Positions 6,904-8,657 of a stretch of DNA of 12,976 nt are shown piece by piece. Both the position numbers and the translations under genes were made by a program. Source of the stretch: Streptomyces sp. NRRL S-1022 (GTDB taxonomy: Bacteria > Actinomycetota > Actinomycetes > Streptomycetales > Streptomycetaceae); the NCBI RefSeq assembly GCF_000720135.1, contig NZ_JOIU01000054.1:1-12976 (forward strand), in the 5' to 3' direction. Within the stretch, counting starts at the first letter, position 1, and the number at the start of each line of letters is the position of its first letter. Under the pieces are notes generated by a model. That model saw only the letters and a program-made list of their open reading frames with translations, was not told the DNA's origin and ran no database searches.

Positions 6904-6981
6904 CTCACGGCTCCGCTCAGAGTCCCGTCAGGACGGACCCCGGCGGGGCCTCGCCGTATCACTCGCCTGTCACAGACGCCC

Positions 6982-8079
6982 CTATAACGTGGGGGCGCGA
7001 GAAACCGGTCTGACCAGGTTGAAGACCTCGCGGGCGGCATATCGTTTGAGGCATCGGATGATCTCACGCCTGGTCTTGCCTTCCTGAGTGCGGCGTTCGT
7101 AGTACGCCTGGGTGCGCGGTTCGTGGCGCAGCCGGGTGAACACGATGCGGTGCAGGGCGGCGTTGGCCTGGCGGTCGCCGCCGTGGTTGAGTCGGCGTGT
7201 GCTCCGACGGCCAGAGGAGTACTCGATGGGGCTCACTCCGCAAAGGGCAGCAAAGGACGCCTCGGTGTTCAGCCGCTCGGGGTTGTCTCCCATGGTGATC
7301 AGCAAGGTGACGGCACTGTCCGGGCCGATGCCCACCGGTACGAGTAGTTGTGGGGCGTGGTGTTCGAGGAGCTGGGTCAGGCGTTGGTTCAGCTGATCGA
7401 TCTGCCCGGTGAGCTGTTCGATGCGCTCGGCGAGCATTCTCAGGGTCATGTGGGTGGCCTGGGCCACCGCGCTCTCGCCGTCCTCGCCGTCGCCTGGGCC
7501 GAGGCGTGCGCAGGTGCGGAACAGCTCGCGGTTGCCGAGGCTGGACAGTCGTTCCCGCAGGGCGGGCTCGGCGATGACCAGCACGGCCTTGAGCTGGTTG
7601 ATCGCCTGGGTGCGGGCCTTGACCGCGGAGTCCTTGGCGAGTTTGAACATCCGGGCGCTGTGCACCGGGCCGTCGCCGGACTTGGCCCGGGCCCGGGCGC
7701 GGCCACTGACCACGGCCCGCGCGGCGGCCTGCGCATCGAGCGGGTCCGACTTCCCCAGCAGCCGGCGGGCCGAGCGGTCGGGCCGGCTCACCTCGTATAC
7801 CTCGACCTGCTGAGCCAGCAGGTAGCGGGACAGGCCCGCTCCGAAGGTGCCGGTGCCCTCCACACCGGCGCGGCGCACCGTCCCCTGCTTGCGGGCCCAG
7901 ACGAGCAGCCGACGGTAGCCGGCCGCCGTCGCCGGAAAGGACTCGGTGCCCAGTACCTTGCCCAGCGGGGAGACCACGGCGGCGACGTGAACCTCGCCGT
8001 GCGTGTCCACGCCCAGAACAACCTCGCCCCGATTGGGCGGATCGGTGCTGGAGGAGGTGCTGTGCTGTCTGGTTGTCAT
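6982..8079 (-). CDS. IS110-family transposase (DEDD RuvC-like, serine recombinase-type C-terminus)
   Basis: A 365-residue protein that looks complete. The N-terminal RuvC-like DEDD domain shows LGVDTHGEVHVAAV (D25), AGVEGTGTFG (E74) and KSDPLDAQAAARAV (D112, D115). The middle has a coiled stretch QLTGQIDQLNQRLTQLLEHH. The Transposase_20 domain follows: PVGIGPDSAVTLLITMGDN, then FAALCGVSPIEYSSGRRS with the candidate nucleophilic serine near 288-289, and RLNHGGDRQANAALHRIVF. The end is REIIRCLKRYAAREVFNLVR. IS110 enzymes recombine DNA through a bridge RNA, cutting without short target duplications. The ATG at 8079 is chosen because the protein family begins shortly before the DEDD domain and the sequence beyond it is the non-coding end. 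No frameshift or missing catalytic residue is visible, so it may be active. Confidence 0.93.
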   Translation of the reverse strand: MTTRQHSTSSSTDPPNRGEVVLGVDTHGEVHVAAVVSPLGKVLGTESFPATAAGYRRLLVWARKQGTVRRAGVEGTGTFGAGLSRYLLAQQVEVYEVSRPDRSARRLLGKSDPLDAQAAARAVVSGRARARAKSGDGPVHSARMFKLAKDSAVKARTQAINQLKAVLVIAEPALRERLSSLGNRELFRTCARLGPGDGEDGESAVAQATHMTLRMLAERIEQLTGQIDQLNQRLTQLLEHHAPQLLVPVGIGPDSAVTLLITMGDNPERLNTEASFAALCGVSPIEYSSGRRSTRRLNHGGDRQANAALHRIVFTRLRHEPRTQAYYERRTQEGKTRREIIRCLKRYAAREVFNLVRPVSRAPTL

Positions 8080-8084
8080 GGTGG

Positions 8085-8262
8085 TTGCCTGCCGCGTGGT
8101 GAAGTGCTGGGTGGATGGCACCGGCCCGCTCGGGCGGTCTGAACCGTGATGGCGCCTGAAAGACGGCAAGGCCCCTATTGGGACACGCCCTGTGGCTCGG
8201 TGACAGCAGGCACCATCCCGCAACGACAGTCGACAAGCCTGTGACTGGACACTGCGGTCATA
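8085..8262 (-). ncRNA. Candidate IS110 bridge RNA
   Basis: The minus strand between the left end and the transposase start folds into consecutive hairpins. SL1: CCGCA (8257-8253) pairs with TGCGG (8222-8218) and encloses CAGTC/GACTG. SL2 follows directly: GATGGTGCCTG (8217-8207) pairs with CAGGCGCCATC (8158-8148), 11 bp with one G-U, enclosing a 48-base region. SL3: CGGT-TCAG-ACCG and GCCCG-AG-CGGGC. IS621-type IS110 elements encode a guide of about 180 nt in exactly this place, with a 5' stem-loop followed by target- and donor-binding loops. Assignment is by position and structure only; the guide bases were not matched to flanks. Confidence 0.5.
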
Positions 8263-8288
8263 GATCTCATGAGTCAGACCCCCGTCCG

Positions 8289-8657
8289 GGACGGCACGGC
8301 GCAACCGTCCCATCGATCCCGCCACAGCGGCGCGACTCGATCACCGCCGGATGGCTTCGAACGAACCGACGCTCAACCTGGCCTGGGCGGGCTGACAATG
8401 CGTTGACTATTCGTCCACTCGTGACCGGCATTGACGGGCAGGCGTGTGCCCCGTCTTACCGACTGTCCTTGGTCGATCACGGCACGAACGGCCTCGGAAG
8501 TCTGAGGCGGCCGAGGAGGAAGGGCCGACTGTGTCCGGGCCCGTGCTCGTGGCACCGGCCAGGGAGGCCGTCATGCACTACGGCCCCCGGCTCATGCCTT
8601 GATCATCAATGCTTCGGCCAGGCTGAGCCAGTCATCGCGGGCACGGCCCTCTGGCAG
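8289..8657. other. No recognisable gene
   Basis: Flank of the IS110 left end. Plus-strand and minus-strand open frames here lack any motif, and their start regions lack convincing ribosome binding sites. It could contain decayed sequence. Confidence 0.45.

Follow-up and report, generated by a model that had tools for sequence, protein, structure and literature searches.

Elements of the IS110 group encode a bridge RNA in their left end, predicted in 85.7% of them (Durrant et al., PMC11208160), and RNA of this kind is also the subject of the seekRNA paper, which covers IS1111 as well as IS110 types and includes one IS110 target lying inside other insertion sequences (PMC11187229). According to the parts of the two IS621 reports on which we draw (PMC11208160, PMC11208158), this E. 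coli element pairs a recombinase bearing DEDD and serine catalytic residues with an RNA from its left end. The RNA is built of two domains, in each of which a stem-loop separates two guides, and it also has a separate 5' stem-loop; a left and a right target guide (LTG and RTG) lie around the core dinucleotide CT, and a left donor guide (LDG) matches the right end (PMC11208160, PMC11208158). In the IS110-family element ISEc21, according to the seekRNA paper, a long non-coding region precedes the transposase gene and the target lies in other IS transposase genes, whereas in the IS1111 group, which has the same enzyme class, the seekRNA comes from the 3' non-coding region (PMC11187229). Bridge RNAs are already known as a kind, the IS110-type biochemistry on which we draw being that of IS621 and ISEc21, and the Streptomyces set described here adds another member; among the titles listed from the open-access literature, we found none on Streptomyces bridge RNAs.

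The window analysed here is a stretch of 12,976 nucleotides from Streptomyces sp. NRRL S-1022. We conclude with high confidence that its minus strand carries an IS110-group insertion sequence whose left end encodes a bridge RNA of about 190 nt (about 8298-8112) ahead of the recombinase gene. A sequence-only reading had assigned a bridge RNA to an IS110-group element from a high-GC actinomycete, and this proposal is strongly supported by a covariance-model match, by the guides of sister elements and by the identity of the LDG with the right end. The gene has the following layout.

6982 to 8079, minus strand: IS110-group DEDD recombinase of 365 aa, ATG at 8079, stop codon TAG at 6984-6982, assigned from Pfam, NCBIfam and catalytic residues

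The encoded protein has both IS110 domains (Pfam PF01548 and PF02371), with the RuvC-like DEDD domain and the Tnp domain with conserved SG by which IS110-family recombinases are recognised, and it scores 170.5 bits against a cut-off of 140 in NCBIfam NF033542 ('IS110 family RNA-guided transposase'). The sequence-only reading was also right that all catalytic residues are present: D25, E74, D112, D115 and S289 are kept, and correspond to the DEDD and serine residues named in the IS621 structure paper (PMC11208158). They were mapped through the printed alignment with ISCro4, which begins past the first D, and D25 was taken from the motif. The ISCro4 transposase (PDB 9t56) is the best solved-structure relative by protein sequence, although its similarity is weak (E 3.7e-06), and the window recombinase is likewise only weakly similar to the IS621 chain (phmmer E 3.9e-06). 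We assign the element to the IS110 rather than the IS1111 group, with the RNA at 8306-8098 upstream of the gene and 6 bases from stop codon to core; as in ISEc21, the long non-coding region precedes the gene, with no more than a few bases after it.

The genome holds a second copy that is 90% identical. Among 80 loci from named genomes, the best of 160, 79 are from Streptomyces and one is from Microbispora, and 126 of the 392 genomes from the genus of the window have a relative at E 1e-60 or better. The same element is found in genome G111 (L088) and in Streptomyces sp. Ru62 (L007). The window's minus strand also carries two related fragments. At 6729-6571, immediately past the element, lies what is left of the C-terminus of a related IS110 transposase, right end included. 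At 10968-10874, a bridge-RNA relic consists of a target-binding half by itself, 92.8% identical to 8288-8192; blastn gave no donor half, and there is no adjoining transposase match.

In the RNA, the target-binding domain precedes the donor-binding domain, and each runs as stem, guide, stem-loop, guide, stem. We arrived at this two-domain fold by consensus folding within the families compared here, together with visual inspection.

8098 to 8306, minus strand: bridge RNA, span of the covariance-model match (115.8 bits); structured core about 8298-8112
8210 to 8297, minus strand: target-binding domain, from pair counts in 32 relatives and a like arrangement in 14 sisters
8297-8287 with 8220-8210, minus strand: target-domain outer stem
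8279-8273 with 8234-8229, minus strand: target-domain inner stem
8259-8257 with 8250-8248, minus strand: target-domain apical stem-loop
8117 to 8204, minus strand: donor-binding domain, from pair counts in 32 relatives
8204-8194 with 8126-8117, minus strand: donor-domain outer stem
8190-8186 with 8136-8132, minus strand: donor-domain inner stem
8172-8169 with 8157-8154, minus strand: donor-domain apical stem

A covariance model (R1) built only from the RNAs of 14 sister elements, whose recombinases are 54-62% identical to that of the window, matched the window at 8306-8098 with 115.8 bits (E 1.6e-26); because it was built from sisters alone, it is an independent test of the fold. Applied to 15 further loci, the model matched nine at E 2.6e-19 or better, two at E 0.65 and 0.76, and four not at all, and a search of Rfam returned no family at its gathering score. 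The fold energy of 8300-8112 is also low compared with shuffles (z -3.04; 1 of 200 as good). The guides and the sequences they would meet are as follows.

8261 to 8269, minus strand: LTG TGAGATCTA, at the position of the flank-matching LTG in 18 sisters
8239 to 8247, minus strand: RTG CAGTCACAG, at the position of the flank-matching RTG in 18 sisters
8171 to 8178, minus strand: LDG ATAGGGGC, identical to the right end at 6985-6978 (8/8)
8144 to 8152, minus strand: right donor guide (RDG) CCATCACGG, whose last two bases track the right-end core
6976 to 6985, minus strand: right end ATAGGGGC-GT, kept in copies with differing right flanks and overlapping the recombinase stop codon
6974 to 6975, minus strand: CT core dinucleotide at the right junction, its register set by the RDG-core relation
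6966 to 6973, minus strand: right target flank GTGACAGG, read from the sequence

By analogy with IS621, the RNA would be transcribed and bound by the recombinase as two dimers, the LTG and RTG of the first domain would pair with the two target strands around the core dinucleotide, the LDG and RDG of the second would pair with the joined ends of the element itself, and an active complex would exchange strands at the core.

Guide function predicts that each element's target guides follow its own insertion flanks, and this agreement was seen across the 18 sister elements (recombinases 54-62% identical) that could be parsed among 21 below 65% identity, L153, L136 and L137 having been dropped when their motifs were not found. 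The LTG, 11 bases before the target stem-loop, corresponds to the element's own left flank up to the core at 172 of 198 positions, counting Watson-Crick matches (permutation mean 115, highest 146 in 20,000; p 5e-5), and the RTG, 9 bases after the stem-loop, pairs with the right flank at 137 of 162 positions including wobble (mean 97, highest 123; p 5e-5). These p-values are rough, because the registers were picked after inspection and some sisters have a common target; the permutation also takes the 18 sisters as unrelated, with kinship among them uncorrected. The excess persists when the core is omitted (LTG 136/162 vs 79; RTG 101/126 vs 71). Some of the sisters, among L138-L155, appear from flanks translated by eye to be inserted at conserved codons of other IS transposase genes, seemingly like ISEc21.

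The donor side gave a similar correspondence. The LDG equals the right end in all 17 parsed sisters (of 21) and in 71 of 76 other parsed copies (of 103), or 88 of the 93 copies overall for which both could be parsed out of 124, with 31 left without a parse; the comparison of right ends across copies dropped 21 of 119. In L144 and L150, ATAGAGGC occurs in both LDG and right end, pointing to a joint change. The last two RDG bases complement the core exactly in 38 of 60 types, where about 25 would be expected under independence by a hand calculation, the 60 being those with a parsed donor domain among 73 distinct window-family and intermediate types; individual combinations were AG-CT in 5/6, GA-TC in 3/4, AA-TT in 2/2 and GG-CC in 28/48. 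We attach no p-value to this relation because the elements are related. In the window, the RDG end GG stands against the core CT as a wobble. Of the 49 window-family and intermediate types in which the RTG core could be parsed, only 24 have two RTG bases that pair with the core they face. In contrast to the CT core of IS621 (as given in PMC11208160 and PMC11208158), right-end cores vary in the Streptomyces family, being mostly CC and CT, with CA, CG, TC, TG and TT also present. A further difference from IS621 is that the right end of the window element, at 6985-6978 by its match to the donor guide, overlaps the stop codon TAG at 6984-6982.

We compared the window's own guides with its flanks. 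The RTG pairs at 8 of 9 positions with the right flank CTGTGACAG (6975-6967), read by eye, whereas the LTG showed no match by eye to the left flank at the candidate ends 8435 and 8459. A comparison of loops with element ends and target flanks, which the sequence-only reading had named as a check, favours a bridge RNA overall but fails for the window's left guide. The LTG instead matches an uninterrupted promoter site upstream of a gene beginning VSETPPNTLQYRFDGPEDAP, which we take to be a pcaDC gene of the 3-oxoadipate enol-lactonase type. With site orientation taken into account, it matched 20 uninterrupted sites of this type at 7 of 9 positions in 11 sites, 5-6 in 5 and 1-4 in 4, these being the uninterrupted ones among the 30 best loci from 81 genomes searched, 66 of which gave a match; 284 control 9-mers preceding GTGA averaged 1.7 matches with a maximum of 5. 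Among 103 distinct copies of the window family and intermediate types that had enough right flank, 52 have the start of a pcaDC-type gene directly at the right end, and LTG type tracks right-flank type across copies (Fisher p 0.0016, with rows that are not independent). We infer from these comparisons that the pcaDC-type promoter is, or was, the guided and preferred target of the window family. Element-free sites related to the window's right target flank occur in part of L187-L207.

The left boundary of the element was sought as the point where similarity ends among 102 loci, all matching over at least 1000 bases and some coming from genomes represented twice.

8435 to 8461, minus strand: most likely left-end zone, candidates 8435 and 8459, where similarity ends among 102 loci

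In 35 of these loci the similarity stops at 8427-8447, another 8 stop at 8458-8461, and 26 remain similar as far as 8490 or more, placing the left end probably near 8435-8461. The best candidates are 8459 and 8435; 8346 and 8498 were weighed beside them, and none is proved. A left end at 8281-8300, as given by the sequence-only reading, is unlikely because similarity continues past 8300 in 81 of 102 loci and to 8427 or further in 73.

Several searches asked for a left flank that would fit the guide. L118 (74% identical), chosen by eye, may be an exception to the mismatch on the left: its own LTG matches 8 of 9 bases just before a left-end candidate. A narrow text pattern for a pcaDC-type left flank 200-900 bases ahead of recombinase residue 22 was found in 0 of 140 copies, and a pattern search for such a flank joined to the left end gave, among the matches listed, sites with one or two mismatches that appear chance-like or uninterrupted. 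The left half of the uninterrupted site used as a query returned one strong match (G110), the others being weak. In the window-family copies examined, left and right flanks do not come from one site. Near-identical left flanks with differing right flanks are shared over more than 1 kb in 7 of 314 such pairs, a length limited by the flank fetched. Within the 20 kb compared, L028 and L059 have two common blocks of 12.8 and 5.7 kb, and L054 departs from these about 480 bases past its locus. L011 has its right end within a regulator gene; the left half missing there was matched best by a second gene that is itself intact, and more weakly by L271.

These flanks raise the question of whether the window copy is a decayed element, with RNA and gene still readable but mobility lost, a possibility that falls somewhat short of probable. 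The left flank that does not fit the window LTG would agree with it, as would the relics of the same family at 6729-6571 and 10968-10874, and long left flanks held in common beside differing right flanks point to rearrangement rather than fresh insertion; the gene, however, is intact with its catalytic residues, as are the RNA fold, the LDG and the right end. Recombination between copies, or deletion beside the right end, would explain the flank mismatch. A larger mobile unit would likewise explain it, but no distant left end with cargo was seen in L028, L054, L059 and L011, where we looked for one. We consider it improbable that this RNA-recombinase pair mobilises or rearranges chromosomal segments larger than the 1.5-kb element alone. 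That reading would draw on the long left flanks shared by some copies whose right ends are joined to different sites; if it held, RNA-guided recombination at one end might build or trim the islands beside the pcaDC-type gene.

A different structure for the RNA had been drawn in the sequence-only reading, with hairpins SL1 (8257-8218) and SL2 (8217-8148; 11 pairs, one G-U) and SL3 after them, and we regard it as very unlikely. SL1 and SL2 do form the minimum-energy fold of the single sequence 8300-8112, 90.1% of cells retain the SL2 pairing, and the joint share of paired cells for the two hairpins is reached by just 6 of 500 shuffles. The compensatory changes that had been suggested as a check did not appear: the SL1 and SL2 covariation score lies within the shuffle range (reached by 76/500), none of the 11 SL2 pairs shows two-sided change, and we rejected the fold. 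In 32 aligned relatives, SL1 and SL2 pair in 83.4% of cells vs 94.2% for the two-domain fold, whose covariation score of 0.164 and 14 two-sided cells were each reached by 0 of 500 shuffles, in a scoring tilted in its favour since the structure was drawn from the same sequences. SL1 also crosses the target-binding loop and SL2 joins the 3' strand of the target-domain stem to the donor-guide region, whereas the two-domain fold leaves the flank-matching guides in loops. The span 8288-8080 proposed for the RNA is not unusually stable (z -0.62; 56 of 200 shuffles fold as well).

The two-domain fold was scored on alignments A1 (32 sequences) and A2 (14 sequences), which together hold 46 of 50 picked sequences; L020, L116 and L117 were omitted for wrong length and L147 for a deletion. 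Within the window family, two measures are not clearly beyond shuffling: 29 further pair types (reached by 102/500 shuffles) and, to a lesser degree, 7 pairs with two-sided change (20/500). Among the 14 sister RNAs, 24 of 49 pairs show two-sided change vs a shuffled mean of 11.1 (0 of 500 shuffles), and all covariation measures lie above every shuffle. Since shuffles break up sequence relatedness, controls in which the sister fold was slid out of register also count, and these paired in 25 to 45% of cells vs 92.2% in register. In the donor stem, pair 8202:8119 shows two-sided change in 6 of 32 sequences, and 8203:8118 is a non-standard pair in the window.

That the conserved structure, sitting directly ahead of the recombinase gene, is a mere mRNA leader for attenuation or translation control and guides nothing is hardly credible, because a leader would have no reason to follow either the insertion flanks, as the sister guides do, or the right end, as the LDG does.

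With the bridge-RNA reading preferred, the set offers a high-GC actinomycete group in which the natural flanks of 18 sister elements served to check the guides, and in which the core dinucleotide varies and the right end falls within the stop codon. It is also a source of recombinase-RNA pairs that are candidates for programmable integration in Streptomyces.

Integrative elements of one family seem to terminate within the pcaDC-type gene, sharing the motif GGTACCACATGGCAC at about codon 40 (L206 from 1368 onward; related loci among L187-L239). In several genomes the opposite end has a 128-base copy of the start of the pcaDC-type gene, and window-family IS copies often adjoin the ends of these integrative elements.
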